This document shows positions 23,001 to 64,000 of a DNA stretch of 64,000 bases, in pieces. This stretch comes from Liolophura sinensis (Eukaryota; Mollusca; Polyplacophora; Chitonida; Chitonidae): contig NC_088296.1 of assembly GCF_032854445.1 (NCBI RefSeq), positions 15,012,623 through 15,076,622 on the forward strand. Direction: 5' to 3'. Every line of letters starts with the position of its first letter. Within the stretch, counting starts at the first letter, position 1. The notes under the pieces are model-generated. The model made no database searches and was not told where the DNA came from. It worked only from the letters and a program-made list of their open reading frames with translations. A program made the position numbers and the translations under genes.

Positions 23001-26000
23001 GGCTACCTCCGTGGTTCAGTCGGTTAGCGCGCTAGCGCAGCGTACTGACCCAAGAGCCTCTCACCACTGCCGTCACTGTGAGTTCAAGTCCAGCTCACAC
23101 TGGCTTCCTCTCCGGCCGTAGGTGGCAAGGTCTTCTAGCAACCTGCGAATAACCCACGACCATAATGCTGGCCGCCGTCGTATAAGTGAAATATTCTTCA
23201 GTTTGGCGTAAAACACCAATCAAGTAAATACATAAATCAAAACACCACCATAGGACTGTGTTTCTCTCCTGCCAGCCTGCCACGATGACAGCATATTGAT
23301 AGTCCTGTCGTACTGGAAAATCACGACAGAGATCGACCATGGCGTCACATCCAGTCACAATCACCTTATGTTAGCATGCCAGTCACGCACAATGGCCCAG
23401 GAGCCTCTCACTAATGCGGTCCTTGTGAGTTCAAAATCAGCTCATGTTATCTTCCTCTCAGGTCGTTTGATAGAAGGTCTGTCAGCAACTACTCTCTGTC
23501 CGGCTTCTTCAGGCCATCACGGCTCTATAGTAAGACAGCATAAACTACACTTGGAAAGACAGGCATCGCATTGGTGATTGGCTACTGCTTCAATGTGCAG
23601 TGCCAGCACGCTAACTGCTATACCATAGAGGCCCCTCTTCGATAACTCAAATAAAAGTACAAGTGGAAAACCTCAATCTGAAAACACTTTTGTCTTCCAG
23701 CTTCCTCAATATATTTCATTCAGTCCACTCTCTCTGTGTGACGATCTATACACGTCAGTAAATGTGGGCTCCAATACACTTTCTGCTGTCTTCCGTTGGG
23801 GTAACTCCATGTAGTATGTTTTCACACAATCTAATTAACTGTGAGTGATTGAACTTCGTGCGGCAGCAATGGAAGACGGATGCGGCCATGTTCTGTCCTA
23901 CATCTTTCTCCAAAACAGGAACGGCGATATCTAAACGACAGTGCGAGATTTAGTCGAGATTAGGGTCGAGATGAGGTCGAGATTAGGGCAACAACGCGAG
24001 ATTCAGTCGACATTCCCACAAGACTCAAACGACATTCGTTCCATATTCCAGTCCAACAGCATTTCATTGAATGGTGCAACGTATAAACATGTATGTCATG
24101 GGGAATTCCCCAGGTAGACATATAACGGAGAATCACGCCCATATTGTTAGCGGCGTATCGAACAAAATATGACAAGATACATGTGGGCCACTGATATCAT
24201 GGCCGTAAAAATACAGATATCCCGTCGCAAATGACATCGAGTTATAGACCCACGTGGCAGCTGGTTTTGAACGTAAATGCCATCATTCCTTAGGCCTAAG
24301 TGTCTGCAGATTATTAAAGACTCACCCTGGGGATTTGGGTTAAAACAGACCAAACTCACGTCCTCGTTGTGACGGCAGTTGTGAATTCCCCACCCCCAAG
24401 TTGAGCACTCTGATATAACAGTCTCGTTCCCAGAACAACGAACTTCGTTCAACCAAATCTGTCCAGTCCCTTGTCCAAAATACGCATTCGGCAATTCGAC
24501 TCCTTCGCTGCAAACAATGTAATGGAAAAAAAACATTATTTTCCCTTTGAACCATATGTACATTGTATGTTTTGATTGACGCAACTTCGTGCTTTCAGTA
24601 TCTGTAACATGCCACATCACTTGGCTTCGCTACCAAGAACATCATGAAAAATATTTGTGGTCCAGCAGATCTGTCTCCACACCACTTTCTAAATAATTGA
24701 GGTTATATTATTTCTGTCTTCATGGATGATGTAGGTTCGGATCACAATAAAGAACTTGAAACATATTCGTAACATTGGAAACTATGGTGGTCCTTTATAC
24801 CACAATGTCACCAGCGCGTCTCACACATATGGCAGGCATGCACATGGAACTCGCTCCTGCGAGTGAAGACCTGGCTACCATACATATACAGGTACGTGTA
24901 CGGGGAAAGATCATATTTTACTTGTGAAATGTCCGTGGTTTTCTTTTCTTAACACCCGAAATTCTTCCCAGTCGCAAGTACTGCAGTGTCAAAAACTTTT
25001 TAAAAACAAATACTTAACATAAATAAGAAGTCATAATTGAGTAACAGGGCGGTTTATCGGCTCCATTATCGTCCTGCATAGTCAACTACATCTGCTTGAA
25101 GATCAGTGGTGAATTTTCGGTTTTGGCATAGTATGGATTCCCAGTTTTATCGTTAGAATTTTTTTCGAAATTCCGACTTATTTCTCCAAGAAACTGTATT
25201 TATTAATTTATTTATTTATTTATTTATTTATTTATTTGATTGGTGTTTTACGTCGCACTCAAGAATATTCCACGTATACGACGGAGGCCAGAATTATGGT
25301 GTGAGGAAACCGGGCATGGTACGGAAAAACCTTCGACCATCCGCAGGTTGCTCGCAGACCTCCTCATGTACGGCCGGAGAGGAAGCCAAAATGAGCTGGA
25401 CTTTAACTCACTGCGACCGAATCAAGAAACTGTAGAATAAATGTACATATATGTGTGTCTGTTTGCTTTGGGTGGTACGTGGTATCACGACTCGGAGCCA
25501 TTAGGTATGTGTACATATTCTGTTGCTTCCTGCAGCAGAGCCACACGGTCAAAGTGCTGCTGCTACTGAAGCATCATGTTGAAGACACCAGACGTATGGA
25601 AACCCACGAGGATCCTCCGGCTGCCTGCAGATATTGCCACTTTTTGCGACAGGGAAGGAAGACAGCATCCGCTGGACTTAAACTCACAGCGATCACATTT
25701 TTCAGAGGCTCCTAGCTCATTGTGCCGGGCTGGCACTCCAAACACTCGGCCACTGTCAAGGACACTTAAACTAGTATTAAAAGGCAACTTATATATACAT
25801 ATATGCTTCAGTTCATACCTTACTTTTGTTCAGTCATATTGCCTCATTTTTTATCGTCCAAACGACAGCTTGAGTTGGCTGATTTCTGTATGAGTATTTG
25901 GGCCACACCCATTTGATTTACATTAGACACTAACTCACTGACACAGCGGCATAACCGACATCATTTTCAAAAAAACATAAAATCTGATAAAGGTTATTCC

Positions 26001-29000
26001 TTCGTTCGAGATTGTGAACATCGTCATTACTCTGAATATAAACATTTCTGATTTAGACATAGTTGTTACTGTTGGTTTCTTAACGCCTTTACGTGGGCCT
26101 TACCTGAATCCCAAAAGCCCACAGATAGTTCTGGCTGCGCTGTGGTCGAAAATGTTGTCACAAACCGTGCCCCATGTGTTCTTGTGGTAGACCTCCAGTC
26201 GGCCACTGAGACTGTTTGTTCCTCGACTCCCGTTAACAAGCCGAATGGGAGTTACTAGGTAACAAAACACCAGAACCACATGTTTCAGTTGTTAAAAGGC
26301 ATAACTGTGATTGCTTTGTACTGGGAACCAAGATGTGCACTGGTAGTTGAGTTGGTGTCTCTGACAGCTTTCAAAAAGAGTACTTTTGAAACACTGGTCC
26401 GTTGACAGGGGAGCCTTATCCCCTAGATGTATGTTTAAAAGGCATCCTACATGAAATTCGGCTTGTAAGATTGGGTCTGTATACCTGAGCTCCACACTCA
26501 CGTCACATAATGAGTGGTAAAAACATCACAGAATCAGTAGAAAAAACGCGACTGACTCAATGCTAAATGCGCCATTGTATTGAACGGTAAAAGACTTTAT
26601 TGCCACATTCAATTATATCTGGGTTAAGTTCACTGTGGTAAACAATTCATTCACGATGTCACATTTGTCCTTAGTTGTAAACAGTTATTAGGTAGACAAT
26701 GTTTTAACTCCTAAAGCTGAAAAATATTCTCTAAGGTAGTATTTCGTGTTTTGACTTAGTTCAGAAATGATTCCTGGTGCTTAGTGAGGTACAGTCTCTT
26801 CTCGCAATATATTCCTGCTTTTGAGTAAGTCATGTGTGTTCCACTCAACTTTTATAAGATTACTACATCGTAGTTAACTTTTGAGGATGGGGCAACATTG
26901 CTACAGGAGGGGGTGGTGTACATGTGAATCTATGGTCCGCTATGATCTCTGAATCGCTACGAGAACGATTGTGTTCGATGTTTTGGATCTACAGTCTTAC
27001 CTGTTAAAACATTTGAGCATTCCAAACCGAGGTCTTCATTGTGAAGACAACTGTTATTCCCCCAAGGACGGTGTGAAACACTGAGATATGCTAGTCTCGT
27101 TCCCAGAACACTTCACCTCGTCCAACCAGATGATCCCAGTACCTGCTCCAAGCCCTGCTCGCCTAACTGCAGTGCCATATCTGTTACACGTAAAAGAGTA
27201 TCACTCAAATTACGATGATTTAGAAATATACAAATCCAAGAGTTCATAATTTTTGATGTTGGTCAAAATGTACGGCTATACCTATAGCGACTAAAAGCAG
27301 ATTGCACTATTAAAGCGCTAAGCGTTTACTATAGGTATATGTAGCTATGGAAGCCTGTTGCTGCCACCCACTTTTTAGTACACTCAATTTTCTATTGTAA
27401 GGTCGAAAACGGGAAAACATAAAAGAGCGAAGATTGAAAGCGCTAATCAACGAAAGGACGAAAATCAAAAAGGCAAAACTGCGAAGGTCGAAAACGCGAA
27501 AGTGGAATGAGACAATAAGAAAATGCGCAAAGAAAATGCGCGGAGAAAATGCGAAATACAACATTGCGTTTCCAGGTTTTTGCTTCGAAAGTCGAAAATT
27601 CAAAGTTAATTTCCCCCTTTTTACCCTTTTAATGAGGTCGAAAGCGCAAATTAACTGATCATAGCGTATAGTTTCAAGCGACCACTAACCCTCAGCGCTC
27701 CGCTATACAAGCAAAATATAGGACTAAAGACAAAAACGAAAAAGGACCAACACATAACATATTAAACCTATACCCATAACACTCCATGGCTCTCGCAAAT
27801 AAAACTCTTTTTAGCTGTTTCACCTTTTGACTATGGTTCGTTACTTCAGAAATAAAAATGCCATCTTAGGACCTTAAACATATTGCAGAAAAATGCCAAT
27901 AAATACCGGAAGGTAAATGAAACAAAACTCAGTTTTGTATCATCACATGATACATGCATTTAGATGTTCTTCATTCACACACAAAATATACATAAGTATT
28001 TTCTAACAGAGCATTGAGGGTTCTTTCCTTTTTGATCTATGATTTATTATTTGATATATTTTTGTTAATGTTATTTTTATAAGTTTATGTAAGTATGCAC
28101 GTGTTTAAAAATACCTGTATCCAATAATGCGACAAAGAGTCTTTGCCGTCACTGCGTTCACACGATGATCACACACTGTTCCCCAGGTACCGCTGTAGAA
28201 GACCTCCAAACGTCCAGTAACACCAGACGAAGATTCCTCGCCATTAACAAGTCTAAGAGGATAAGATTCTGAAAATTACAGTTTAGGACAATAGAACAGT
28301 ATCTGTGCGTCGAAACAAACATTCGTATACCAGTCGTCAACTAAAAAACTATATAAAATAGGCAACTACAATGAAGTTCGAATGACGCTAGGTATGTTCT
28401 AGGCGATGAGTGAAATTAGTATTCAGAGTATATAAGTTGTCGAGAATAAAGTATATGCACAGGTATTTCAAATGAGATTTGATTAAAACTTCAGGTCTTA
28501 CAAGTTACAACATTTCCAGTTTTCGCCAGTTCACAGTATATCCAAGCGTTCCTTAGGTGCATTTCTTTAATTATTTGATTGTTGTTTAACGCGATGTCGC
28601 TTTATTTATTTTATTTATGTTTTACGATGAACTCAAGAAAATTTCACTTTTAAGACGACATCCAGCATTACGGTGATAAGAAAACTTGCAGAGCCTGGGG
28701 GAAACACACGGTTATCTGCAGATTGCTGCCAGACCTGCCCACGTACGGCCGTAGAGGAAGCCAGCATGAGTTGGACTTGAACTCACAGCGACCGCATTGG
28801 TACGCCAAATCGAATTACCTGGTGTAAAGCACCGAGCGTAGGTAATTCACCGATGAATTTTCAGCATGTGATGTGGAAAGTTTCCATAGACATGTACATC
28901 TTCCCATTAATATACACACCTTCCCATAGATATACAAACTTTCGCACAGATATATACACTTTCTCAGAGATATACACAATTTCCATTAGCTATTCACACC

Positions 29001-32000
29001 TTTCCATAGATATACAAACTTTCGCACAGATATACACACCTTCACACACACATACACAACTTTCCATACATATACACACTTGCGCACAGATATGCACCTT
29101 CCCATAGATATACACACATTCCCATAACTACACACATCTTCCAATAGATATACACACCTTCCCATGGATATGCACATCTTCCCATAGCTATGCACACTTT
29201 CCCATAGATATGTACACCTTCCCATTAATATACACACTTTCCCATAGATATACAAACTTTCGCACAGGTATACACACTTTCTCAGAGAAATACACTTTTC
29301 AATAGCTATTCACACCTTTAAATAGATATACACATCTTTGCACAGATATACACACCTTTTCAGAGATATACACAATTTCCAATAACTATCAACACCTTCC
29401 CGTAAATATACAAACTTTCGCACAGATATAAACACCTTCACACACATACACAACTTCCCATAGATATACACACTTGCGCACAGATATACACCTTCCCATA
29501 GATATACACACATTCCCATAACTACACACATATTCCAATAGATATACACGCCTTCCCATAAATATGCACATCTTCCCATAGCTATGCACACTTTCGTATA
29601 AGTTAAATGCTATTGCCTACGGTATAAAACACCAATCAAATCAATAAATAAATGTGTCATAGAAACAAATAAATAAAATGGTTTCACATTGATTCCATGT
29701 ACTATGGATCATGGGAAAACAAATACTAACTTAAATCGTATCAAGTTTAACTGGGTTTCAGTCGAAAAACTGCTCCTCTTCCAAGCTGTCAATAACATGT
29801 TGACTTTACCTGTTCTAATCCACCAGTTAAGCGTATATGACAATTTCTGATGAAATACAGTCTGAGCTGGAATTTCAGTATAAACGCGGTAATCGTATGT
29901 TACCACGCAACAATGGTCAGTTTGGCTTTGAACTAAGTCAACATTGGACTGGAAATGGTATCTCATTCAAAATCACAAATCGTTTGAGGCAAAAATGTCC
30001 GGAAAATTCCGAAATGCATGGAACGGTCCGATAATTAATTTTGACCTGCAATTTGTCATTGTGACTAATTACACCAAGTTCGGATTTACTATGGTAAACC
30101 GGCGTTCAAAAAGGCGCAAAAGAGTGATTCGTGACGGATAGATGGATTGATGGACTGATGGACTGATGAACTAATGGACTGATGGACAGACGGATTGATA
30201 GACTGACGGACTGACGGATTAATGGTCTGACGGACTGACAGACTGACGGATTGACGGACTGACGGATTGACGGACTGATGGTCTTATGGACTGAATGGCG
30301 GTCTGGCGGACTGGTAGACCAATAGACTGACGGACTCCTGAACTGGCAGATTGACGGATTGACGGCTGATGGACTGATGGAGGGACGGACGGACTGATGG
30401 ACAGATGGACTGATGGACTAACGGATTGACGGACTGATGCACTGATGGACAGACGGGCTGATGGATTGATTGACTAACGGATTGACGGATTAATGGACTG
30501 ACGGATTGACCGACTGACGGATTGACGGACTGATAGTCTCATGGACTGAATGGCGGTTTGGCGGACTGGTAGACTGATAGACTGTTGGACTGAACTGACA
30601 GACTGATGGATTGACGGACTGATGGACTGATGAACTGACAATTGACCGACTGATAGTCTGATAGTCTGATGGACTGACAGACCAACCTGCCGGGAGTAAA
30701 CCTATAGTCTCCACCGGGAGCGTTGAGGGAAGCGTTGAGTCAGATGTTTCAACTCTGTAGCCTTACCTGTAGTATCGTTTGAACAGACCAAACCGAGGTC
30801 ATCATCGTGCCTACATATGTATCCCCCCCAAGGACGGTGTGAACACTGGGATATGCGAGTCTCGTTCCCTGAACACGCCACATCGTCCAACCAGATTACC
30901 CCAGTACCCGCTCCAAACCCAGCATTGTTAACCGGATATCCACGGCTGTAACAAACCCTCGGAATTTGGAACAAATATGAATAGGCCTAACTGAAGACTA
31001 GGACATGTTACAGAAGAAACAGTTTCGTAAACAGTGTACTAAGACAACAAGAGTGAGGGTGTCCACAAACCAAAATACATGTATAAAGGTAGAAAATATG
31101 CCGGAATGAAAAATGACTTTTGTTTTGCTTCTGCAATGTTAGCATAGAACACTTAAATCCATCGTTTTACAGCTCTTTTCCCTAAATCCTTTAATAAATA
31201 TGAATACAGCATACCTGTAGCCAAGAATGCGGCATAGAGTATTGGCAGTGAGTTTATCGGATCTCCCGTCACAAACGGTCCCCCATACACCTGAGTAGAG
31301 AACCTCCAAACGTCCGCTTAGACTAGTTGCTGTTTTTGATCCATTGACCAGTGTGATTCTTTCTGAAATAAAGGTTTATTCGGCACGGTCTTAGCCAATT
31401 GGTGCACTATGAACGCAGCATAACGCTGTTCACAGCCCAAGACCTATGTACGATCACAAGACCCTAAAGTCTGTAAATGTTTATATTGAGCAAACATTTA
31501 TACATCATTCCGACCAAGATGGGTCGTGACTGAGAAGCTAACATACTTATACGTTTAACTATATTATTTATTTAAAACAATTAAAACAATTCCTTAATTG
31601 AACTGGTCCACAGGCCAACAAGAAGTCATTTTAAATTGAAGTCAAACTTTCAATCCACTTTAAATTGTTTTTTTTCTCTCATGCAAAAAGGTCAAAGTTT
31701 ACCGGTGGAGATATATTGTATATATAAGCAACATGTATACAATGTATATATTAGCAGCATGTATAAACGGTTGCATACATTAGCAGGCTTACCTATTTAC
31801 TAGTGCCTGTCTACAAGTCCCTATTTACAAATCCCTATTTACAAGTCCCTATTTACAAATCCCTATTTACAAGTCCCTATCTACAACTCTCTATCCACAG
31901 GTCCCTACTTACTAGTCATTGTCTACTAGTCTCTATCTTTAAGTCCCTATTATAGGACTGAGCAGTGATAACTGGAAATACTTCAACAAACGCTTGCCCA

Positions 32001-35000
32001 TCCACAAATGAACTCTGTCATGCGTATTATCTGGAGGTTGCTGACGACCTTCTCACGTACGGTCGGAGAGGAAGCGAGCATGAGTTGGACTTGAAATCAC
32101 AGCGACCGCATTGGTGAGAGGCTCCTGGGTCATTACGCTGCGCTAATGAGCTAACCAACTGAGCCACGGAGCCCCCCTGGAATTGTAGGTTTGCCATACT
32201 TTTCGGTGAAGGACTCCGTCACCTTTGGCTGTGAGTCCATTTTGCCCCGGTATCTAGTTTTTGATGCGTTCCAGAGTTCTACACTATAGATTAGTGTGTT
32301 TCTAGCTGTGGGATAAACCAACCAGAGAATGCTATCACTTAAACACATAGGAAAGTTAATTACATTCTTTTGTTTACAGAAAAAGTACAGCACTACGGGA
32401 AAAGATAACACACCTTGTTTGCAAGGCCATCTCTGGTTAATATGGATATGTTTATTTGCACACGATCCGGAAAAGAGGTCAGTCCTACCTGTTCTTTCGT
32501 TTGAGCAGACCAAGCCGATGTCTTCGCTATGCCCACAGTTATTCTCTCCCCAAGGACGATGAGAACACTGGGATATGCGAGCCTCGTTCCCTGAACACGC
32601 CAAATCGTCCAACCAGATTACTCCGGTACCTGCTCCAAACGCTCCGTTGATTGGATAGCCATCCCTGTAACCCACCAGTAGAATTTAGAAAAAAGAAAAT
32701 CAAACAAAAACAAGCAAACAAGAAATGAAATGAAATCAAAGAAAACACTGCATGTCGTCAAACAATTTGGTGTTCTTATTTATTTATTTAATTACTTTAC
32801 TTTATTTAATAATTGACCTTCATGGCCGAGTGTTAGCGTGCCAAAGTCTCTCACCGATGTGACCGCTGTCAGTTTAAATCCAGTTCAAGTTAAGCTCAGC
32901 AGCAGCCTGGTCGTGATTTTCAACAGTTTAGAATGTAAGCTTTTAAACTATGTTAATATGGCTTGTATTTCTATTCCTCACACATTGATCAGTAACTTAC
33001 GAAACGTGTGTGGATGACGTCTGCAGTAATTATAGAGGATATTCCCAAGTAAGTGGAAAATACTAGTACCTGTTGTATTGACTTCTGTTTTGTTAACTTG
33101 AATGACAATGAACACTTAAACTCGTCGTTTACTAAACACGATTCCTGAAATACATATGTATACAACACACCTGTAACCGAAAATGCGGCAAAGTGTACTG
33201 GCACTGAGTTTGTTGAATTTATCGTCGCAAACGGTTCCCCATATGCCGAAGGCGGAAACTTCCAGTCGTCCGGTTAGAGTGGTTGCTGTCGTTGATCCAT
33301 TTGCAAGCCTGATTTTTTCTGCAACTAGAGTTTTAGTTACATGTGAACTGCAGGCCATGCATGACTGAGGAGTTCAGATTATCTGTTGCAACTTTCCCTG
33401 TGCATTGCTCAAGGAAGGGTCAGTAGTTGTGCGGCTAAGTTACTCTGAGTACAGGACTGTTATCGTAACTGTCTCTAGATATTTGTCTGTCAATCACTAC
33501 GGCATGAGCAACCTCATCATACCCTACTTGATGACCCAGCAGCCTCTCACCAATGCGGTCGCTCTGAGTTCCTTTGAGTTCTGCCGGAAAGGAAGTCCAT
33601 CTTACGCTGGGTTCCTTTCCGGCAGTACACTGTCACCGTAATGCTGGCCGCTGTCGTATAAGCGAAATTTCTTGAGTGCGGCGTAAAACACCAATCAAAT
33701 AAATATATAAATTCCGGACATGATGATAAGTGCCCAGACAGTCCGATTGTGCGATTGTGCGGCTATGTACGATCACAATAGTGCCACCACTCGATAAGGT
33801 TAACATTTAGAGGAGCTTGATTAATTTTAGTATTATTACAAATGCCATGGCGGCTTCCCCTGACCAGTGTAATAAGAATTCCTGTGGAGTATTTAACATA
33901 TATCCCCTCCTGTACCAGCGGAGGACATTTGAACTATAATACACAAGTGGAGCAGCTCCAAAACTCCACGACTCAATATTTTGACACCTTATTTTGTCAT
34001 TATCATGAAAACTAAATTTCACGGTGAGTGAGTGAGTGAGTGAGTGCTTGGGGTTTAACGTCGCACTTACAACTATGGACACAGGGCAAATTTCCACTTT
34101 TCCTTTATCTAGTGCTGCTTCACTGAGAGGGCTTACAGAAGGCAAGTAAACCACACCACCCGAGCCATTTTGCTGATACGGGTAACCAGTCTTGACACTA
34201 TTCCCTAAATGTTGAACGCTACGCGAGGAAATTACAACTTCCTCTTTATAAGTCTTAGGTGTGACCCAGGATTGACCTTGGATCTACCGCTTACGACACG
34301 GACGCTCTACCAACAGTGCTACCGTAATTTCATGGAGAACATTACAGATATATATGTACAGGTTTAGAGACAAAGCCACAAAATGCGGTCTAAGTGTTAA
34401 ATCACCGTAAGATATATATGTAGATAAAGGAGAATAAAACAGGGAGATCACATAACAGATAGCCATTATGTACACAATAGCCTATTGTGACTTTAAAGCC
34501 ATGGGTAATAGGTGAATGTTACAGAGATACACAGGTATGGTGTTATAAAAACAGGTGGAATAATACTAAACCAACTTAGACTGTAAAAACGGGAAACTAC
34601 AACAGCATTGGTGTTGTAAAAGTCAACATTTTCTGATTCTTCAATGCTTTTAAGGCCATCATGAAGAGCCGGCTTACATCTGTAAATAGCAAATGCTTCC
34701 TTGTGAATCATTTGTTCACTTTATAGGCTTACCTGTTGTATCGTTAGTGCACACCAAACCAAGGTCTTGGCCATGCCTACATTTATTATTTCCCCAAGGA
34801 GCATGTGAACACTGAGATATGCGAGTTTCGTTCCCTGAACAAACCACATCGTCCAACAAAATAAACCCAGAACCTTCACCAAACCCTGCTCGACGGACCG
34901 AATAGCCATGGCTGTAACAAACCAGCAGAATTCAGAAGGAAAAAATCGGTGGAGTTAATCTGACACACATTCTATAAAACTGCATGAAGGAGCGTAGTAA

Positions 35001-46460: not shown

Positions 46461-46463
46461 TTT

Positions 46464-46815: not shown

Positions 46816-46819
46816 CGCA

Positions 46820-48060: not shown

Positions 48061-48061
48061 G

Positions 48062-48930: not shown

Positions 48931-49235
48931 AAATCAATTATATATTAAATGCAGGTAAACAATGGGTGAAATGACACATAATAATTCTATCCAAAGTAAA
49001 AAACGTTAATGAGGAAATCTATTGAAATAATAGTAAATGAAGTAAATATATCCACAGCGTAAACCAACATGTAAGACAAGTGCAGTAATCAGTGCGCATT
49101 GACCTTGAAAGATAGTACACAGCCGTAATCCCGAAAATGGCGTGGGTGCTGCATTGTCACCGCAAAGCCCTGGTGGTGACACTATATTATTCTACTTGCA
49201 TTCTGTATGCTTTGGGTTTTATGTCGTATGAAAGC

Positions 49236-52200: not shown

Positions 52201-52356
52201 CAGTCTTTATTTAAACTAGTTCCAGAACTTTTCAAAACCCCCATACATACCATGGTACCGGTACATAGGACTTCCTGGAGAGACAAAAAAAAATATGTGA
52301 AAATTTATAATATGGACATAAGACGATGATATCTATAGTGTCACTGCGTGGGTTAA
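49236..52356. repeat. Segmental duplication block A, copy 2
   Basis: Direct copy of 384-4008 without the 445-bp transposon and with a small deletion at the SINE head. Its right end abuts the inverted SRCR arm at 52357. The two share TTAA at the junction. Confidence 0.9.
51690..51905 (-). mobile_element. SINE family A, empty site of the transposon
   Basis: Same SINE as 2858-3571 but uninterrupted: a single cacgt (about 51825-51830) where copy 1 has the insertion. The distal head is deleted. Confidence 0.85.
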
Positions 52357-52633
52357 AAGAGAAAGTTGTAACTCCCTCGCTTGGCGTTCAGCATAAAGGG
52401 GATAGTGCAACGACTGGTTGACTTGTATCAGTATAATGGCCCGTGCGTCTTACTTGCCTTCGGTAAGGGGAATCAGTGGAGCAGCACTAGAGAAAAGAGC
52501 GGTGGAAATTTGTCCTGCAACAAGGAGGCGCATTATATACACCCTAAGGATTCCTTCGCCGTCATATGACTGAAAAATTGCTAAGCACGACGTTAAACTC
52601 CAAACATTCACTCACTCACTCACTCACTCACTC
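52357..52633 (+). mobile_element. SINE family B, head cut off by the duplication junction
   Basis: Body and (ACTC)n tail of the same SINE as 39324-39593. The head is missing because the junction lies at 52357. Confidence 0.8.
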
Positions 52634-53027
52634 ATGTGTAAGTAACCTTTTGTTTCTTTGTGTAACCAGTACATATGTGTATTTGACTCCCATATCCCAT
52701 ATATACTGTTGCCATCCCCGCTTACAAGCATGAGCTAATGGTGGGTCTCCGTGTCAGCGGGTCACAGCGGTCTTTCAGCAGCGCGATTGCTGTAAATTCA
52801 TGTTCACCTGTTCATTTTTTCTGTATTAAAGGAAAAAGGCCACCAAATCACGTTAATGGTTAATACTTCCAGAGCAGCAAAAGCTATATCATGGTGTTAG
52901 TATCGTTACTTGTGAGTTTTGTATCCCAGTATTTAGCAGTTTTGATGATATTGAAGCTTGAAAAAGCGAACAAAAATAAATCTAACAATAATACCCTGCA
53001 AGGAAGGCTTTGGCGCTTGATAAATAA

Positions 53028-53030
<3 letters not shown>

Positions 53031-53060
<30 letters not shown>

Positions 53061-53103
53061 TGTATGTATGTATGTATGTATGTATGTATGTATGGATGGA
53101 TGG

Positions 53104-53140
<37 letters not shown>

Positions 53141-53418
53141 CGTGTGTGTGCGTGTGCGTGTGCGTGCGTGCGTATGTATGTATGTGTGTGCGTGTGTGCG
53201 TGTGTGTGTGTGTGTATGTATGTATGTTTGTATGTATGTATGTATGTATGTATGTATGTATGTATGTATGTATGTATGTATGTATGTATGTATGTATGTA
53301 TGTATGTATGTATGTATGTATGTATGTATGTATGTATGTATGTATGTATGTATGTATGTATGTATGTATGTATGTATGTATGTATGTATTTATGTATGTA
53401 TTTATGTATGTGTGCATG
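53031..53418. repeat. (GTAT)n microsatellite with (TG)n core
   Basis: Almost 400 bp of GTAT/TGCG/TG repeats. Not present at the matching place in arm 1 (about 38930), so it expanded or was inserted after the duplication. Confidence 0.95.
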
Positions 53419-53809
53419 TTGAGGTTTAACATCGAACTTAACAATTTTTCAGTCATATAACTGTCATATGAGTCATTATGTGTGTATATATGCATTGTAT
53501 CTTCTGGTGAGAGGGAGAGTTTGTGCGGCCAAAGTGCCAGCCCCACCCACTGATGTTAAACTGACATCAGGCCGATAAGCCATGTTTCCTTGCACAGACG
53601 ACTCAGTGCTGAGCGCCAAGCAAGGCATTAGCAAAAACCATTTTTAAAGCCTTTGGTATGACCCGACCCGGGTGATAAATAAATAAATCGGTATGATTTA
53701 ATACCAACTCAAGTGGAAATCTGGTGATATGTAACAGGTCAGAGTTTAATCAAATCTGCAGATGAATTCGAAAGCCACGGTGGCTATTGACTTAAACTTT
53801 TATTTCCAG

Positions 53810-53963
53810 CGACATACCCTCTTAGACTCGTTGATGGCGAGGAGACATCATCTGCTGTTACTGGACGTTTGGAGGTGTTCTATAACGGTACATGGGGAAC
53901 CGTGTGTGATGATGGTGTGACTGATATCACTGCTTCCAGTCTTTGTCGCATTCTTGGACACAG
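53810..53963 (+). pseudogene. SRCR1 first-half exon copy (open)
   Basis: 154 nt, intact [20 protein letters not shown] and LCRILGHR; two substitutions from 38450-38603. Splice sites are kept. Confidence 0.85.
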
Positions 53964-53999
53964 GTATTTTTTAAACATTGGCACACTAATTTAAAGTGA

Positions 54000-55025
54000 A
54001 AGAAAACAGCATTTGACTAGAGCTGTATGCGGTTATACGGCTTCCCAGCAGTTTGTACACATGGTTTTATATGCAGATTGAGTACGGCGTAAAACACAAA
54101 TCAGATAAATAACTACATTTACCTTGTGCTTCAGATCAAATCTGTTTCACACACTCTCCACGACAGAGCATTCGAATCAATCCTTTCTATGCTCTGAAAC
54201 GAATAAACGGTAAACAAATCCGTGTAAGACAATGACCTCTCTCTTCCTTCCAAATACCTTCGGCAACAAGTAGATATTTCTCATGAGGGTGTATCTTTGT
54301 TAATTTTCACATATTTACACACTGTATCTGACGTCACGATTGCCCACAGATAAATAGTCTCCATAAGAGTAGTACTAATAGTACAGCGCCCTTGAGACGG
54401 TGAGAGCCGTATATCTGCTGCCTGTATGATGGGCTACAGACTAAACCTCTACATGTAAACCGTCTACATAAATGCTGCAGCCGACAGTGATCTATTTTCG
54501 CTGTGACTGTAGTCAAATCCATTCAGAACCATTCGGATATGAAAGAACTGGGTGGCGTAGGAACGCTTAGGTTACTTGAGCAGAGTCACTGATATATGTA
54601 AGGAATTGGGATTTCTGGCATTACTTGTATCTTTAACGTTAACTGTCATATTTGTTTAACACAGAGGGGGGGGGGAGGGGGATGGGTTGTAAAATTTACT
54701 TGTGTAATGCCTACTATTGCACTTAACTGGGCTATCAATTATCAAGTATCAAAAACTGTTGATAGACGAGTAATTAGTTGTTTTAGGTATATATTTTGAT
54801 CAGCTTCAAGAAAAATAAATCAGGCTCACACTGTAGACCAAGCCCCGGGGCCACGAAGTGATCTTATACTTAAGTGATACTCTGTCAAAAAATATTTTGG
54901 CAATCACATCAGAAATAACAATTTAAAAGTGATTAAAATTTTGCCTTGAGATCGCTTCGTGATCCAGGGGCCTGTATATCTGTAATTTGTGGTAAGGAAG
55001 ACACATCCAAGGTTCTGTTGGAATG
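54000..55025. other. Intron of the duplicate, nothing recognised
   Basis: Matches arm 1 (37410-38440). Includes a short SINE tail near 54080 and a G-run at 54664-54680. Confidence 0.35.
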
Positions 55026-55031
55026 TAGCAG

Positions 55032-55196
55032 CGGTGGCTATGCAGTTAGCAGGGCAGGCACTGGGTTGATCTGGTTGGATGATGTGGTGTGCAGGGAACG
55101 AGACTCGCATATCCCAGTGTTCTCATCCTCCTTGGGGAGAAAATAACTGTGGGCATCACGAAGACCTCGGTTTATTATGTTCAAACGATACAACAG
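55032..55196 (+). pseudogene. SRCR1 second-half exon copy, 2-nt deletion
   Basis: 165 nt versus 167 in arm 1: a tg pair is missing in the gtgtgtgc run near 55086-55092. The frame shifts after DDVVC and meets TAA at 55144-55146. Confidence 0.88.
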
Positions 55197-55919
55197 GTAA
55201 GACAAGCAGATGTTTAACTGGTAGATTTGTATTGTTCATCTCTATCATACAAAAAATCCATTTTTTATTATATATTTTAATTATTAGGAATCCAAAAAGA
55301 ACATGCTTTGGCATATACTAATACGTTGTCCTGCTCCTCCTAGGTTTAATTACGTGTAACCTCATTTCATTTATTCACATCATATGCTAATAATAACTGA
55401 TGTATGCCCCAGAATAGAGCGCTGAGATACCATTCGTCATGGGAAATGGCACAGAAACGCAATCAGTATGAAGGACGCATTGACTTTAAAGCTTCAAAAC
55501 TAGGACAGAGATACATTTCAAAAGCTATGCAATTGGCTACACGAAGTCTACCTAATCTAAATCGGCGTGCTTTGTCGCACGAGCTACATGTACATACGAG
55601 TTCGGCAATCAATCTTCAAGAATGCCATTTGATTCTTCACATTTGATTTCATGTTATCACATAACCACCGTGAATATCATGAGTCCGGTAGAAGTTGACG
55701 ATTAGTTTATAAAGGACTCTCGCGAACAGGCAGCGATTGACCACGATCAATAGATCACAACGAATCGCAGTTTGTGGTCATAGAAAGTCACAGATCGGGT
55801 GTTACTGGGCATGGAGGGAATGTTTTTCTAGCTTGAGTGAGTTATTTGCTGCAGTTGATGCTTAATGCCAAGAAAACTATTTGCAGACATGGTCGTCAGT
55901 TGTTCGCTATCAAAGGGCC

Positions 55920-56830
55920 TTGATTCGCTGATGATCCCAGAGAACCAGTACCCCAGTGGCGCTTCCGTGTTTCGGAATTGAACTCTGTGTAATTATTGTT
56001 GAAAGGTCTTTTTTTCTGCCAGTCTGTCTTTTTGGATGAAAGGGTTCATGCATGGTATTGAAATAAAGGAAAATGTCTAACCTTTGGGCATGTGCGAGTT
56101 TTAAGGTTACACATGCGCAATTCAGGCGGCTTGGTTCAAGATTTGCCTCCAAACGGAAGTGTGAAGGAGCACTGGTTGGGTAATCTTGCCATACAGACAT
56201 TTTGCTTTCTTGATGAACTCTAAATTTCTGCACTGCTAGTTTGTAACTAGTTAAAATAAATCGTATTTGTATAGAATTGTGTGTGTTTTGGATAGAACTG
56301 AAAACGTTTTGCCAGTGTTACTTCCTGTCACCCTGTAGAATACTAAGGTACATGTAACAGAATGCGATGACTTAACTACCAGTAATCACAGCTCATTAAA
56401 GGTGCTAATGCTGGGTCGATTTTTTGAGATGTTGTAGAGCAAACTGCAAGCTGCATGTGGTGGTGTGGCATTGCACCAGGCGAACTTTAGGGCATACACA
56501 TTTTTGAGGTTGAACTCTACAAATTTACTACGTGAATAGTAAGGGAAATCAATCCGCTCGTGTAACTTTAATGTCGAAAGCGGACAAATCTGGGTGAGAG
56601 GACACAAGGAGACAGGTGTCGATGAGGTTGTGTTGTTAGGCACCCTTCCCATCTGCTGGTATAGAAAGGTTTAGATTTTGACGGCCAAGCGGTCAAGATT
56701 TTATTTGCTGCTTTTTCACAGGCTGATCAAGTATGCACCAAAGCGTTTTGGCCGCTGAGTGTTTCGGAATGTGTTACAACATTAAACGATAACATTGTCG
56801 CCTATCAAAAATTGGCAACAGCTGTCTGAT
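55920..56830. mobile_element. Longer relative of the 445-bp transposon (arm 2)
   Basis: Mirror of 35540-36440. Holds aggacacaaggagacaggtg and gtatgcaccaaagcg, both found in diverged form in the 3010-3454 insertion. Confidence 0.55.
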
Positions 56831-57103
56831 GGCATACCTTAGTTGCTTAACCACAGATCTTTCGTTGAACATTACAGAGGAATGTGCAGAACATGGAACG
56901 TTTAGCTTTTCAGTCACAAACCGCGGTTCTCATGCTGCTAAAACTTCAGTTTCAGGAACGAGGTTTTCAAAAGTACAGATGTACCGTCCTGAAATGCTTA
57001 AATGTGACCCCAATCTATACATTAACGAACACTAAGGCCTTAAGCTCTGAAGGGCGTTATATTGTACTCATACAACTGCAATTAGCTAAACCTTTACTTT
57101 CAG

Positions 57104-57251
57104 AAGGAATCAGCCTCGTAGGTGGACAAAAAACAGCAACCAGTCTAAGCGGACGTTTGGAGGTTTTCTACTTCGGTGTATGGGGGACCGTTTGTGACAA
57201 CAACTCCAACAAACGCACAGCCAATACTCTTTGCCGCATTCTTGGCTACAG
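57104..57251 (+). pseudogene. SRCR2 first-half exon copy (open)
   Basis: 148 nt; [34 protein letters not shown]; splice sites kept. Confidence 0.85.
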
Positions 57252-57459
57252 GTATGCTGTGTACATGCAAGGAGCGGGGAATCTTAACTGTTAAACGATG
57301 GTTTTAAGGGTTCATTTTGAAAATGAATAAAATAGATGTTTTTGCGAGGAGAATATTCGCTATCCTGTAATTACTACGCTCCTTTACGCAGTTTTATAGA
57401 ATGTGTGTCAGATTAACTCAACCAATTTTTTCCTTCTGAATTCTGCTGGTTTGCTACAG

Positions 57460-57638
57460 CCATGGCTATCCGGTCACTCGAGCAGGATTTGGAGAAGGTA
57501 CTGGGTTTATTTTGTTGGACGATGTGGTTTGTTCGGGGAACGAAACTCGCATATCTCAGTGTTCACATGCTCCTTGGGGAAATAATAATTGTAGGCATGG
57601 CTAAGACCTTGGTTTGGTGTGCACTAACGATACAACAG
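57460..57638 (+). pseudogene. SRCR2 second-half exon copy, nonsense codon
   Basis: 179 nt. CAA of arm 1 is TAA here (57602-57604), directly after CRHG and before the last cysteine. Confidence 0.88.
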
Positions 57639-58045
57639 GTAAGCCTATAAAGTATAAACAAATGATTCAAAAGGAAGCATTGGCTATTTACAGATGTAAG
57701 CCGGCTCTTCATGATGGCCTTAAAAGCATTGAAGATTCAGAAAATGTTGACTTTTACAACACCAATGCTGTTGTAGTTTCCCGTTTTTACACTCTAAGCT
57801 GATTTAGTATGATTCCACAGTTTTTTTATACCATACCTGTGTATGTCTGTAACATTCACCTATTACCCACGGCTTTAAGGTCATAATAGGCTATTGTGTA
57901 CATAATGGCTATCTGTTATGTAATCTCCCTGTTTTATTCTCCTTTATCTACATATATATCTTACGGTGATTTAACACTTAGACCGCATTTTGTGGCTTTG
58001 TCTCTAAACCTGTACATATATATCTGTAATGTTCTCCATGAAATT

Positions 58046-58343
58046 ACGGTAGCACTGTTGGTAGAGCGTCCGTGTCGTGAGCGGTAGATCCAAGGTCAAT
58101 CCTGGGTCACACCTAAGACTTATAAAGAGGAAGTTGTAATTTCCTCGCGTAGCGTTCAACATTTAGGGAATAGTGTCAAGACTGGTTACCCGTATCAGTA
58201 AAATGGCTAGGGTGGTGTGGTTTACTTGCCTTCGGTAAGCCCTCTCAGTGAAGCAGCACTAGATAAAAGAAAAGTGGAAATCTGCCCTGTGTCAATAGTT
58301 GTAAGTGCGACGTTAAACCCCAAGCACTCACTCACTCACTCAC
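58046..58343 (+). mobile_element. SINE family B (arm 2)
   Basis: Head gtagcactgttggtagagcg, a B-box-like aaggtcaatcc, body and (ACTC)n tail. Confidence 0.8.
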
Positions 58344-58664
58344 TTACCGTGAAATGTAGTTTTCATGATAATGACAAAATAAGGTGTCAAAATATTGAGT
58401 CGTGGAGTTTTGGAGCTGCTCCACTTGTGTATTATAGTTCAAATGTCCTCCGCTAGTACACGAGGGGATATATGTTAAATACTCCACAGGAATTCTTATT
58501 ACACTGGTCAGGGGAAGCCGCCATGGCATTTGTAATAATGCTAAAATTAATCAAGCTCCTCTAAATGTTAACCTTATCGAGTGGTGGCACTATTGTGATC
58601 GTACATAGCCGCACAATCGCTTTAAGGACTGTCTGGGCACTTATCATCAGGTCCGGAATTTATA

Positions 58665-58870
58665 TATTTATTTGATTGGTGTTTTTACTCAAGAAATTTC
58701 ACTTATACGACAGTGGCCAGCATTACGGTGACAGTGTACTGCCGGAAAGGAACCCAGCGTAAGATGGACTTCCTTTCCGGCAGAACTCAAAGGAACTCAG
58801 AGCGACCGCATTGGTGAGAGGCTGCTGGGTCATCAAGTAGAGTATGATGAGGTTGCCCATGACGTAGTGA
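58665..58870 (-). mobile_element. SINE family A with internal palindrome (arm 2)
   Basis: Mirror of 33500-33710. The 14-bp palindrome arms lie at about 58739-58783. Confidence 0.75.
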
Positions 58871-59045
58871 TTGACAGACAAATATCTAGAGACAGTTACG
58901 ATAACAGTCCTGTACTCAGAGTAACTTTGCCGCACAACCACTGACCCTTCCTTGAGCAATGCACAGAGAAAGTTGCAACAGATAATCTGAACTCCTCAGT
59001 CATGCATGGCTTGCAGTTCACATGTAACTAAAACTCTAGTTGCAG

Positions 59046-59193
59046 AAAAAATCAGGCTTGCAAATGGATCAACGACAGCAACCACTCTAAGCGGACGACT
59101 GGAAGTTTCCGCCTTCGGCATATGGGGAAACCGCTTGCGACGATAAATTCTACACACTCAGTGCCAATACACTTTGCCCCATTTTCGTTACAG
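59046..59193 (+). pseudogene. SRCR3 first-half exon copy, +1/-1
   Basis: An extra a in the ggggaaa run (59125-59130) gives an early TAA. A compensating base is lost just before the donor (ttcgttacag versus ttcggttacag), so total length remains 148. Confidence 0.85.
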
Positions 59194-59520
59194 GTGTGTT
59201 GTATACATATGTATTTCAGGAATCCTGTTTAGTAAACGACGAGTTTAAGTGTTCATTGCCATTCAGGTTAACAAAAGGATTTAGGGATAAGAGCTGTAAA
59301 ACGATGGGTTTAAGTATTCTATGCTAACAATACAGAAGCAAAACAAAAGTCATTTTTGATTCCGGCATATTTTCAACCTTTATACATGTATTTTGGTTTG
59401 TGGACACCCTCACTCTTGTTGCCTAAGTACACTGTCTACGAAACTGTTTCCTCTGTAACATGCCCTAGTCTTCAGTTAGGCCTATTCATATTTGTTCCAA
59501 ATTCCGCGGGTTTGTTACAG

Positions 59521-59699
59521 CCGTGGATATCCGGTTAACAATGCTGGGTTTGGGGCGGGTACTGGGGTAATCTGGTTGGACGATGTGGCGTGCTCAGGGA
59601 ACGAGACTCGCATATCCCAGTGTTTACACCGTCCTTGGGTGGAAAACGTATGTCAGCACGATGATGATCTCGGTTTGGTCTGTTCAAACGATACTACAG
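59521..59699 (+). pseudogene. SRCR4 second-half exon copy (open)
   Basis: 179 nt; [20 protein letters not shown], four cysteines kept, NDTTG. It now follows the SRCR3 first half through the deletion. Confidence 0.85.
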
Positions 59700-59778
59700 G
59701 TAGGGCTACAGAGTTGAAACATCTGACTCAACGCTCCCTCAACGTTCCCGGTGGAGACTATAGGTTTACTCCCGGCAG

Positions 59779-60655
59779 GTTAGTCTGTCAGTCCATCAGA
59801 CTATCAGACTATCGGTCGGTCAATTGTCAGTTCATCAGTACATCAGTCTGACAGTCCGCCAATCAATCAGTCCATCAGTCCTTCAATCCATCAGTCTGTC
59901 AGTTCAGTCCAACAGTCTATCAGTCTACCAGTCCGCCAAACCGCCATTCAGTCCATGAGACTATCAGTCCGTCAATCCGTCAGTCGGTCAATCCGTCAAT
60001 CCGTCAGTCCATCAGCCCGTCTGTCCATCAGTGCATCAGTCGTCAATCCGTTAGTCCATCAGTCCATCTGTCCGACAGTCCGTCCATCAGTCCATCAGTC
60101 CATCAGTCCGTCAATCCGTCAGTCTGCCAGTTCAGGAGTCCGTCAGTCTATTGGTCTACCAGTCCGCCAGACCGCCATTCAGTCCATAAGACCATCAGTC
60201 CGTCAATCCGTCAGTCCGTCATTCCGTCAGTCTGTCAGTCCGTCAGTCTATTAATCCGTCAATCCGTCAGTCCATCAGTCCGTCAGTCCATCAGTCCATC
60301 AGTCCGTCAATCCGTCAATCCGTTAGTCCATTAATCCGTCTGTCATCAGCCATTAGTTCATCAGTCCATCAGTCCGTCAATCCGTCAGTCTGCCAGTTCA
60401 GGAGTCCGTCAGTCTATGGGTCTACCAGTCCGCCAGACTGCCATTCAGTCCAGAAGACCATCAGTCCGTCAATCCGTCAGTCCGTCAATCCGTCAGTCTG
60501 TCAGACCGTCAGTCTATTAATCCGTCAATCCGTCAGTCCATCAGTCCGTCAGTCCATCAGTCCATCAGTCCGTCAATCCGTCAGTCCATTAATCCGTCTG
60601 TCCATCAGTCCATTAGTTCATCAGTCCATCAGTCCGTCAATCCATCTATCCGTCA
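59779..60655. repeat. 8-bp minisatellite, expanded (arm 2)
   Basis: cagtccgt/cagtccat/caatccgt units over about 875 bp, against 545 bp in arm 1. Internal blocks of about 250 bp repeat as higher-order units, for example cagttcaggagtccgtcagt at about 60130 and 60390. Confidence 0.92.
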
Positions 60656-61348
60656 CGAATCACTCTTTTGCGCTTTTTTTAAACGCCAGTTTACCATATT
60701 AAATCCCATCTTGGTGTATTAATTCACTATGACAAATTACAGGTCAAAATTAATTATCGGACCGTTCCATACATTTCGGAATTTTCCGGACATTTTTGCC
60801 TCAAACGATTTGTGATTTTGAATGAGATACCATTTCCAGTCCAATGTTGACTTAGTTCAAAGCCAAACTGACCATTGTTGCGTGGTAACATACGATTACC
60901 GCGTTTATACTGAAATTCCAGCTCAGATTGTATTTCATCAGAAATTGCCATATACGCTTAACTGGTGGATTAGAACAGGTAAAGTCAACATGGTATTGAT
61001 AGCTTGGAAGAGGAGCAGTTTTTCGACTGAAACCCAGTTAAACTTGATACGATTTAAGTTAATATTTGTTTTCCCATGATCTATAGTACATGTGATAGTC
61101 AATGTGAAACCATTTTATTAATTTGACACATTTATTTTTTGATTTGATTGCTGTTTTATACCGTAGGCAATAACATTTCACTTATACGACCCTGGCCAAT
61201 AATGTGGTGGGAGGAAAAGGCCAGCACACTTTGCCACTCAGCCACTCTAGGTAAAATAGTTCATTCCCACAAGCCGAATACATGTTCCAAGCAATATTGT
61301 GTTGCGTGTTGGACTGTGACGGCAATTAGCGGATTACGATCTTATCTA

Positions 61349-62300
61349 TGGGACGGTGTGCATATCTATGGGAAGGTGTACATATCTATGGGAAGGTGTG
61401 CGTTTTATGGGAAGATGTGCATTTTATGGGAAGGTGTGCATATGTATGAGATGGAGGGCATATCTACGGGAAGGTGGACATATCTAAGGGAAGTTGTACA
61501 TATCTATGGGACGGTGTGCATTTTATGGGAAGATGTGCATTTTATGGGAAGGTGTGCATATGTATGGAAGGTGTGCATATGTATGGGAAGGTGTACATAT
61601 CTACGGGAAAGTGTGCATAGCTATGGGAAGATGTGCATATCTATGGGAAGGCGTGTATATCTACTGGAAGATGTGTGTAGTTATGGGAATGTGTGTATAT
61701 CTATGGGAAGGTGTATATCTGTGCGCAAGTGTGTATATCTATGGGAAGTTGTGTATGTGTGTGAAGGCGTTTATATCTGTGCAAAAGTTTGTATATTTAT
61801 GGAAAGGTGTAAATAGTTATTGGAAGGTGTGTATATCTCTGAAAAGGTGTGTATATCTGTGCAAAGATGAGTATATCTATTTAAAGGTGTGAATAGCTAT
61901 TGAAAAGTGTATATCTCTGAGAAAGTGTGTATACCTGTGCGAAAGTTTGTATATCTATGGGAAAGTGTGTATATTAATGGGAAAATGTACATGTCTATGG
62001 GAAAGTGTGCATGGCTATGGGAAGATGTGCATATCTATGGGAAGGCGTGTATATCTATGGGAAGCTGTGTGTAGTTATAGGAATGTGTGTATATCTATGG
62101 GAAGGTGTATATCTGTGCGCAAGTGTGTGAATGTATTGAAAGTTGTGTATGTGTGTGTGAAGGATGTGTATATCTATGGAAAGGTGTGAATAGCTATTGG
62201 AAAGTGTGTATATCTCTGAGAAATTGTATATATCTGTGCGAAAGTTTGTATATCTATGGGAAGGTGTGTATAATAAAGGGAAGATGTACATGTCCATGGA
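61349..62300. repeat. About 20-bp minisatellite, expanded (arm 2)
   Basis: gtgtatatctatgggaaggt-type units over about 950 bp, longer than arm 1. Long open frames (up to 222 codons) come from the repeat. Confidence 0.9.
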
Positions 62301-62379
62301 AACTTTCCACAGCACATGCTGAAAATTCATCGGTGAATTGCTTACGCTCGGTGCTTTACACCAGGTACTTCGATTTGGC

Positions 62380-62580
62380 GTACCAATGCGGTCGCTGTGA
62401 GTTCAAGTCCAACTCATGCTGGCTTCCTCTACGGCCGTACGTGGGGAGGTCTGGCAGCAACCTGCAGATGGCCGTGTGTTTCCCCCGGGCTAAGCAAGTT
62501 TTCTTATCACCGTAATGCTGGATGGCGTCTTAAAAGTGAAATTTTCTTGAGTTCAGCGTAAAACATCAATAAAATAAATA
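62380..62580 (+). mobile_element. SINE family A (arm 2)
   Basis: Mirror of 28600-28805; B-box region gtgagttcaagtcc near 62397 and body. Confidence 0.75.
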
Positions 62581-62912
62581 AAGCGATATCGCGTTAAACA
62601 GCAATCAAATAATAAAGAAATGCACCTAAGGAACGCTTGGATATACTATGAACTGGCGAAAACTGGAAATGTTGTAACTTGTAAGACCTGAAGTTTTAAT
62701 CAAATCTATTTTGAAATACCTTTTATATACTTTATTATCGACAACTTATATACTCTGAATACTAATTTCACTCATCGCCTAGAACATACCCAGCGTCATT
62801 CGAAATTCATTGTAGTTGCCTATTTTATATAGTTTTTTAGTTGACGACTGGTATACGAATGTTTGTTTCGACGCACAGATACTGTTCTATTGACCTAAAC
62901 TGTAATTTTCAG

Positions 62913-63066
62913 AATCTTATCCTCTTATACTTGTTAATGGCGAGGAAACTTCGTCTGGTGTTACTGGACGTTTGGAGGTCTTCTACATCGGTACCTGGGG
63001 ATCAGTGTGTGATGATCGTGTGAACGCAGTGACGGCAAAGACTCTTTGTCGCATTACTGGATACAG
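62913..63066 (+). pseudogene. SRCR5 first-half exon copy (open)
   Basis: 154 nt; [35 protein letters not shown]. The usual RLV is ILV and WGTVC is WGSVC. The next half-exon should lie beyond the window. Confidence 0.85.
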
Positions 63067-63329
63067 GTATTTTTAAACACGTGCATATTTACATAAACTA
63101 TAAAAATAACATTAACAAAAAATATATCAAATAATAAATCATAGATCAAAAAGGAAAGAACCCTCAATGCTCTGTTAGAAAATACTTATGTGTATTTTGT
63201 GTGTGAATGAAGTACATATAAATGCATGTATCATGTGATGATACAAAACTGAGTTTTGTTTCATTTACCTTCCGGTATTTATTGGCATTTTTCTGCAATA
63301 TGTTTAAGGTCCTAAGATGGCATTTTTAT

Positions 63330-63520
63330 TGCGCAATGACCCAGGAGCCTCTGAAAAATGTGGTCGCTGTGAGTTTAAGTCCAGCGCATGCTGTCCTTTC
63401 TTCCCTGTCGCAAAAAGTGGCAATATCTACAAGCAGCCGGAGGATCCTCGTGGGTTTCCATATGTCTGGTGTCTTCAACATGATGCTTCAGTAGCAGCAG
63501 CACTTTGACCGTGTGGCTCT
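63330..63520 (+). mobile_element. Chimeric SINE-like repeat (arm 2)
   Basis: Mirror of 25553-25780. The left edge coincides with the deletion junction near 63328. Confidence 0.6.
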
Positions 63521-63639
63521 GCTGCAGGAAGCAACAGAATATGTACACATACCTAATGGCTCCCCGTCGTGATACCACGTACCACCCAAAGCATACAGAC
63601 ACACATATATGTACATTTATTCTACAGTTTCTTGATGCG

Positions 63640-63850
63640 GTCGCAGTGAGTTAAAGTCCAGCTCATTCTGGCTTCCTCTCCGGCCGTACATGAGGAGGTC
63701 TGCGAGCAACCTGCGGATGGTCGAAGGTTTTTCCGTACCATGCCCGGTTTCCTCACACCATAATTCTGGCCTCCGTCGTATACGTGGAATATTCTTGAGT
63801 GCGACGTAAAACACCAATCAAATAAATAAATAAATAAATAAATAAATTAA
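63640..63850 (+). mobile_element. SINE family A (arm 2)
   Basis: Mirror of 25203-25425, body plus (AAAT)n tail. Confidence 0.8.
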
Positions 63851-64000
63851 TAAATACAGTTTCTTGGAAAATTAAGTCGGAATTTCGAAAAAAATTCTAA
63901 CGATAAAACTGGAATCCATACTATGCCAAAACCGAAAATTCACCACTGATCTTCAAGCAGATGTAGTTGACTATGCAAGACGATAATGGAGCCGATAAAC

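Follow-up and report, generated by a model that had tools for sequence, protein, structure and literature searches.

A tandem array of SRCR genes in the chiton Liolophura sinensis in which a balanced internal inversion has probably decapitated alternate copies

A 64,000 nucleotide stretch of contig NC_088296.1 of Liolophura sinensis (RefSeq assembly GCF_032854445.1; positions 15,012,623 to 15,076,622, forward strand), here called the window, lies in a tandem array of about 4.8 similar units of 43–49 kb, U0 to U4, which spans about 230 kb and carries a gene for a protein with SRCR domains. Very probably, a balanced inversion within one unit decapitated its SRCR copy, and unequal exchange may later have spread the inverted form. 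Coordinates are window positions on C2:15012623-15076622, with negative numbers lying to the left of the window, and 294 kb of this contig (C2) were aligned against themselves.

The key to the structure of the locus is a direct copy. Positions 49236-52377 repeat 384-4027 on the plus strand, and this copy ends where an inverted copy, running downward from 39595, starts. In U2, the left flank (49236-52352) and the right flank (83100 onward, equivalent to 39794 onward) are therefore direct, and the centre between them is inverted, the full arm 4002-39595 being the reverse complement of 52353-82566. The unit junction, GAAAGC/AACGTAG between U1 and U2, is found again at 92261 and 140458. A fixed head-to-tail junction, direct flanks, an inverted centre and balanced breakpoints are thus all present, as in a tandem duplication with an internal inversion. 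Parts of U4 are hidden by two runs of exactly 5000 N (141863-146862 and 161863-166862), the starts of which are exactly 20,000 bases apart.

A preliminary description of the window had reported mirror-image arms at 25050-39593 and 52357-64000. Self-BLAST agrees with these to a few bases, far above chance: 53539-59276 matches 38882-33088 in reverse (94.9 % over 5,821 columns), as do 52353-53028 and 39595-38928, and 63331-64000 and 25725-25052. The inner ends of the arms hold; the outer ends, 25050 and 64000, reflect only the edge of the window, as the copy extends to 82566, equivalent to 4002 in U1. Likewise, the arms are mirror images but are not fully colinear, since 25726-27850 and approximately 31206-33087 of U1 are absent from the second arm. 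Exon divergence, previously put at 1–4 %, is somewhat wider (0–7.1 % over the 12 shared body exons, gaps included). The 12.8 kb spacer (39596-52352) does contain the 5′ side of the forward gene, including its signal-peptide-like exon. A real rearrangement in an expanded SRCR family had been thought likelier than a misplaced haplotype, and this remains so, but the event had been named an inverted segmental duplication; what is seen is a direct tandem copy of approximately 49 kb with a balanced inversion, and the forward and inverted pair recurs as U3 and U4. Hairpin transcripts, which had been raised as a possible effect, are not favoured, because a hairpin RNA needs one transcript through both arms and the forward gene, the 5′ side of which is at 41.3 kb, is read towards lower coordinates, in the direction opposite to the inverted arm of U2.

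Both breakpoints fall at the sequence TTAA. U1 reads GTGGG-TTAA-AGGG at 4002 and CTCTG-TTAA-GGTC at 39592; U2 reads GTGGG-TTAA-AAGAG at 52353 and AACCCT-TTAA-GTTC at 82563. Allowing for point differences, the U2 junctions are the product expected from a balanced inversion between two TTAA sites, with 0 bases lost. On the right, the junction of U4 is the same as that of U2 for 271 bases; on the left, it is covered by N. Because U0 is forward, and a repeat that crosses the right breakpoint is whole in U1 and U3 and split in U2 and U4, the forward orientation is taken as ancestral; this is supported by exon 1 of the SRCR gene, which is in phase with the body only when the body is forward. Non-allelic homologous recombination between inverted repeats was rejected as an origin of the inversion: the two breakpoint neighbourhoods match best over 56 columns at 77 %, in a stretch that covers the right breakpoint but is about 510 bases from the left one. 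TTAA is the target of piggyBac elements, to which these breakpoints might be linked, but it occurs 418 times in the window.

In U1, the SRCR gene is on the minus strand and has 18 exons: a start exon, 16 body exons, and a last exon. Each SRCR domain is split over two exons, the flanking introns being phase 1 and the inner intron phase 2. Five of the 10 open reading frames of the window that were tested match Pfam PF00530 (36.7–50.2 bits, curated cut-off 26.1), and a hidden Markov model (HMM) made for this study finds 16 half-domain exons in each of U0, U1, and U3. The motif in the last exon that resembles low-density lipoprotein (LDL) receptor class A matches Pfam PF00057 with E 0.0031 and 18.1 bits, under the cut-off of 24.1. 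In all five units, the projected exon 1 is on the minus strand. The SRCR body shares this strand in U0, U1, and U3, but in U2 and U4 it is on the plus strand. Judging from the family, the product of the forward units is most likely a secreted protein with eight SRCR domains that serves innate recognition, with the caveat of the frameshifts described below.

As the right breakpoint separates exon 1 from the body, the former keeps its old strand and the latter flips, therefore the gene is decapitated in U2 and U4. Projection of exon 1 gave none on the plus strand of the U2 body, although a new leader exon was not specifically searched for. U2 and U4 both have a 5 bp loss and a stop in exon g1. 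Further lesions are listed for U2 only: a2 has lost 2 bp, b2 contains a stop, and c1 holds a +1/-1 pair together with a stop. Two larger deletions are shared by the inverted units. Recombination between neighbouring SRCR domains was rejected as the cause of both, since one has a 16 bp overlap at non-equivalent intron positions and the other has a blunt junction. With the start exon lost and lesions in the frame, U2 and U4 are classed as pseudogenes, on the evidence of these lesions and not of substitution counts. Their SRCR bodies are apparently dead, the gene having been decapitated and then having decayed.

Table 1. Features of the array, in window coordinates.
Feature	Position	Strand or orientation	Remarks
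U0	~-47000 to 383	forward	blocks 77–95 % identical to the rest (self-alignment)
U1	384-49235	all forward	48.9 kb; self-alignment and unit junction
U2	49236-92260	direct flanks, inverted centre 52353-82566	only 49236-64000 within the window
U3	92261-140457	forward	self-alignment
U4	140458 to ~182951	direct flanks, inverted centre	visible parts 146863-161862 and 166863-175734
U1 centre, ancestral orientation	4002-39595	+	reverse match to 52353-82566
U2 inverted centre (right arm)	52353-64000, continuing to 82566	-	self-alignment
Left breakpoint, uninverted, TTAA	4002-4005		site read in U1, U2, U3; U4 left junction under N
Right breakpoint, TTAA	39592-39595		in SINE-like (short interspersed nuclear element-like) repeat and SRCR intron 1; site read in U1–U4
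U2 left inversion junction, TTAA common to both parents	52353-52356		no net loss
U2 right inversion junction, TTAA	82563-82566		sequence read
Repeat element (SINE-like, putative name)	39323-39645		whole in U1/U3 and in copies to the left of the array; interrupted in U2/U4
SRCR exon 1	41151-41259	-	start codon and signal-peptide-like sequence (by eye), GT donor, phase 1; outside the inversion
U1 SRCR body	17665-38603	-	16 exons, 8 SRCR domains; HMM scan, Pfam PF00530, exon models
SRCR last exon	16931-17079	-	one LDL-receptor-class-A-like motif, then stop
U2 decapitated SRCR body	53810-64000, on to 70716	+	exons c2, d1, e2, f1 and last absent; breaks or stops in a2, b2, c1, g1
Deletion of exons c2, d1 in U2/U4	U1 31206-33087		16 bp overlap at the U2 junction, the only one read; c1 runs in phase into d2
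Deletion of exons e2, f1 in U2/U4	U1 25726-27850		blunt junction in U2; e1 joined in phase to f2
Intronless leucine-rich-repeat (LRR) gene	7852-10833	+	fn3-like, probable membrane protein, 993 codons; inside inverted segment; Pfam, fn3 under cut-off

The proposed history would begin with a unit of approximately 49 kb, carrying a secreted 8×SRCR gene and, in U1 to U4, an LRR gene, that was duplicated head to tail. In one copy, the DNA would have broken at TTAA sites 35.6 kb apart, and the piece would have turned and been rejoined through a 4 bp palindromic overlap with no net loss. With one break in intron 1, the signal exon and what is presumably the promoter side would have stayed in place and the body would have passed to the other strand; decapitation would then be the cause of the loss of the gene, with the other lesions probably following as the copy decayed to a pseudogene. 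Later unequal exchange, easiest between same-facing units, may have spread the inverted form, giving U0 and U1 forward, U2 inverted, U3 forward, and U4 inverted. Such exchange would also have mixed the far collinear flank, with the opposite-facing centres kept apart.

Divergence between the units bears on this exchange. For the centre, 13.8–21.0 kb of U1 (the region of the U4 N run) and tandem repeats were masked; for the right flank comparisons with U4, windows that diverge by more than 15 % were left out, which removed a single window from each of the three. In the unmasked centre, U1 and U3 differ by 1.97 %, U2 and U4 by 0.85 %, and forward and inverted units by 2.85–3.08 %. The informative two-two sites of the centre (n=268) have the patterns 13/24, 12/34, and 14/23 in the ratio 256 : 5 : 7, so that 256 group the two forward units together and the two inverted units together. 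For the right flank, the ratio is 37 : 1 : 0 up to 44 kb and 4 : 4 : 5 beyond (Fisher near versus far, 2e-6), and divergence between U1 and U2 is lower than in the centre (2.04 % versus 2.97 %, p 2e-5). The left flank has nine two-two sites (6 : 2 : 1), too few to reveal mixing. Based on these patterns, conversion between opposite-facing centres, which had been suggested for the two arms, looks rare, and the far right flank looks mixed, presumably through exchange. Long minisatellites are also present within the units (19453-20363, 28884-29595, 30132-30682, and 42573-43531), several copies of which vary in length among units.

Non-synonymous (N) and synonymous (S) changes were counted in the SRCR body exons, leaving out exon 1 everywhere; exons c2, d1, e2, f1, and the last exon in U2; a1, a2, c2, d1, e2, f1, h1, h2, and the last exon in U4; and c1, c2, and d1 in U0. 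These exons were deleted or masked, or their projection had landed on the wrong paralogous domain. Between U1 and U3 there are 14 N : 17 S (dN/dS 0.24), a departure from the neutral expectation of 74.3 % N (p 0.0006). There is no such departure between U1 and U2 (42.5 N : 14.5 S, dN/dS 0.87, p 0.88) or between U2 and U4 (9 N : 3 S, dN/dS 0.90, p 1.0, with 12 changes only). Changes were also counted by lineage over 12 body exons, with U0 as outgroup; this count further omitted e2 and the last exon, required U1, U2, and U3 jointly, and excluded one site that belonged to none of the classes. Together, the tips leading to U1 and U3 have 7 N : 9 S. From the lineage counts, constraint is visible only between U1 and U3.

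A number of observations weigh against the proposed history. The inverted branches have 21 N : 11 S, which is not significantly different from the 7 N : 9 S of the forward tips (p 0.22); the older forward branch, before the split of U1 and U3, has 13 N : 3 S and does not look constrained, and 9 N : 0 S are unplaced in the lineage count. The forward genes themselves are not intact, with a +1 frameshift in e2 of U1 (27001-27180, T2 to T3) and a 1 bp frame-breaking insertion in f2 of U3 (115900-116082, G5 to G6). Both insertions are in short single-base runs and may be consensus errors, recent real lesions, or in skipped exons. None of U1 to U4 is fully open as assembled, and the exons of U0 are only partly assigned. 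The divergences of 0.85 % and 1.97 % are unequal (p 5e-23), therefore U3 and U4 are not a single clean copy of U1 and U2. In addition, the two 5 kb N runs conceal part of U4.

It is unlikely that the inverted units, or the whole of U3 and U4, are a misplaced second haplotype, that is, alleles of U1 and U2 stitched into one contig. According to passages of the published report of the assembly (PMC11068029), it was built with hifiasm, purge_dups, and YaHS from 14× HiFi data with a mean read of 8,347 bp, and heterozygosity is 1.24 %. The low depth and this heterozygosity give the idea some room, and the 0.85 % between U2 and U4 is within the allelic range. However, there is no N from -99999 to 141862, and so no visible scaffold join over U0 to U3. 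The three unit junctions, compared over 2.4 kb each because a longer stretch takes in an insertion in U3, differ pairwise by 2.8 %, 2.6 %, and 2.4 % (56–66 differences); with three distinct junctions, one chromosome of a diploid must carry at least two of them and hence three tandem units. With both strands considered, no identical stretch in the 294 kb exceeds 1,371 bp, which is well under the mean HiFi read, and 4 kb probes from the left and right flanks (one apiece) gave no second copy beyond repeat elements among the scored matches. The use of purge_dups also speaks against retained alleles, and if U3 and U4 were alleles of U1 and U2, the distances between U1 and U3 and between U2 and U4 should be about equal, which they are not.

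Two further explanations concern how the inverted arm arose and what it does. That it was made directly inverted in a single event, by break-induced or palindromic copying, is hardly credible: neighbouring centres do stand head to head and tail to tail, but the sequence on either side of the inverted arm is copied directly and in the expected order, as a tandem copy with an inversion would leave it, and the junctions are balanced at TTAA on both sides. It is less far-fetched, although quite improbable, that the inverted body is a working shorter SRCR gene of six domains, including the hybrids c1d2 and e1f2, with a new promoter and leader from the left flank. Both large deletions preserve the splice phase, leaving the hybrid domains in frame, and among the readable body exons of U4 only g1 is broken. 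Against this, the 5 bp loss in g1 is common to both inverted copies, three further exons are broken in U2, and the N : S counts of the inverted copies show no departure from neutral. Tandem duplication followed by a balanced, decapitating inversion remains the preferred explanation.

The LRR gene, in which the membrane segment was read by eye, is open in U1 and U3 (dN/dS between these, 0.65); two 1 bp insertions shift the frame in U2, and there is a stop at codon 958 or 959 in U4. Projection of the gene onto U0 did not find it, therefore the gene was either gained by the unit after the divergence of U0 or lost in U0. The inverted units contribute SRCR bodies that are dead and, in U4, what may be one nearly intact LRR gene. 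In U2, the orphaned signal exon (84183-84291, minus strand) is 5.4 kb upstream of the LRR gene on the same strand. Promoters might accordingly have been exchanged by the inversion, the orphan SRCR promoter now facing the LRR gene, with read-through giving antisense RNA across the decapitated body, complementary to transcripts of the forward units. This is highly improbable, an antisense or promoter-swap role being conceivable from geometry only. If true, the array would hold its own copy-number-dependent antisense dampener of its immune gene. The window scan found no tRNA and no Rfam match at gathering score.

The searched genome has 609,464,459 bases in 632 contigs, and the published chiton assembly, in the passages covered, has 609.5 Mb, 632 scaffolds, and 13 pseudomolecules; its species was first given as Liolophura japonica (PMC11068029) and the name was corrected to L. 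sinensis (PMC12441733). A 3.4 kb probe from the arm has four copies at 96 % identity or more, all on C2, the forward pair at 100 % and 98 % and the reverse pair at 96 % and 97 %. The SRCR family model has at least 158 matches in the genome (150 of 500 candidates scored), and the matches listed for the genome-wide probes are on contigs C1–C13. An SRCR cluster at C3:1113001-1117500 has reverse-strand relatives approximately 770 kb away (C3:1885121-1902967), with main blocks 84–93 % identical; judging from this pair, opposite-facing SRCR blocks recur in the L. sinensis genome. At C13:28.99-29.12 Mb, the SRCR matches listed change strand: every one up to 29.04 Mb is on the plus strand, and every one from 29.08 Mb is on the minus strand. 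This switch suggests a second mirror-image SRCR cluster.

A balanced inversion that breaks within a gene, leaving a promoterless pseudogene, is a known kind of event. The chiton locus shares with such inversions the simple end-joined breakpoints and a gene parted from exon 1, and differs from them in lying in a tandem array and in being present in two units (U2 and U4). Expansion of SRCR genes by tandem duplication is well known, for example in sponge and sea urchin, as described in the parts covered of PMC10855680. Those invertebrate arrays likewise have tandem SRCR clusters with shifting domain number and exon structure, whereas the chiton repeats whole units of approximately 49 kb with an LRR neighbour, alternate units being internally inverted and the gene cut. 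Such inversions are not described in the passages covered of that paper, and the word ‘pseudogene’ is not in its main text. The Sp185/333 clusters of the sea urchin, in the passages covered of PMC5103432, are also clustered immune genes with segmental duplications, questions of assembly and alleles, and proposed gene conversion. However, the GAT-bounded duplications of Sp185/333 are 4.2–4.6 kb, with one orientation per cluster and almost no pseudogenes, and the chiton unit is about 10 times longer and partly inverted, with inverted copies that look dead. Among the titles and the starts of abstracts listed by literature searches on SRCR tandem duplication, inversion or pseudogenes, first-exon inversion, and inverted repeats in arrays, this locus is not described, and a search joining ‘chiton’ and ‘SRCR’ gave, at the same depth, a snail genome only. 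In the main text of a paper on chiton rearrangement (PMC12005716), the words ‘inversion’ and ‘SRCR’ are both absent.

The locus is a case of ordinary gene-array evolution that is unusually legible. What appeared as a mirror image becomes an ordered series of events with exact breakpoints. It also offers a natural experiment within one array, in which same-facing and opposite-facing units can be compared using divergence as a measure of exchange. In addition, gene prediction could count the dead decapitated copies as SRCR genes, which would inflate the sizes of expanded invertebrate immune families.

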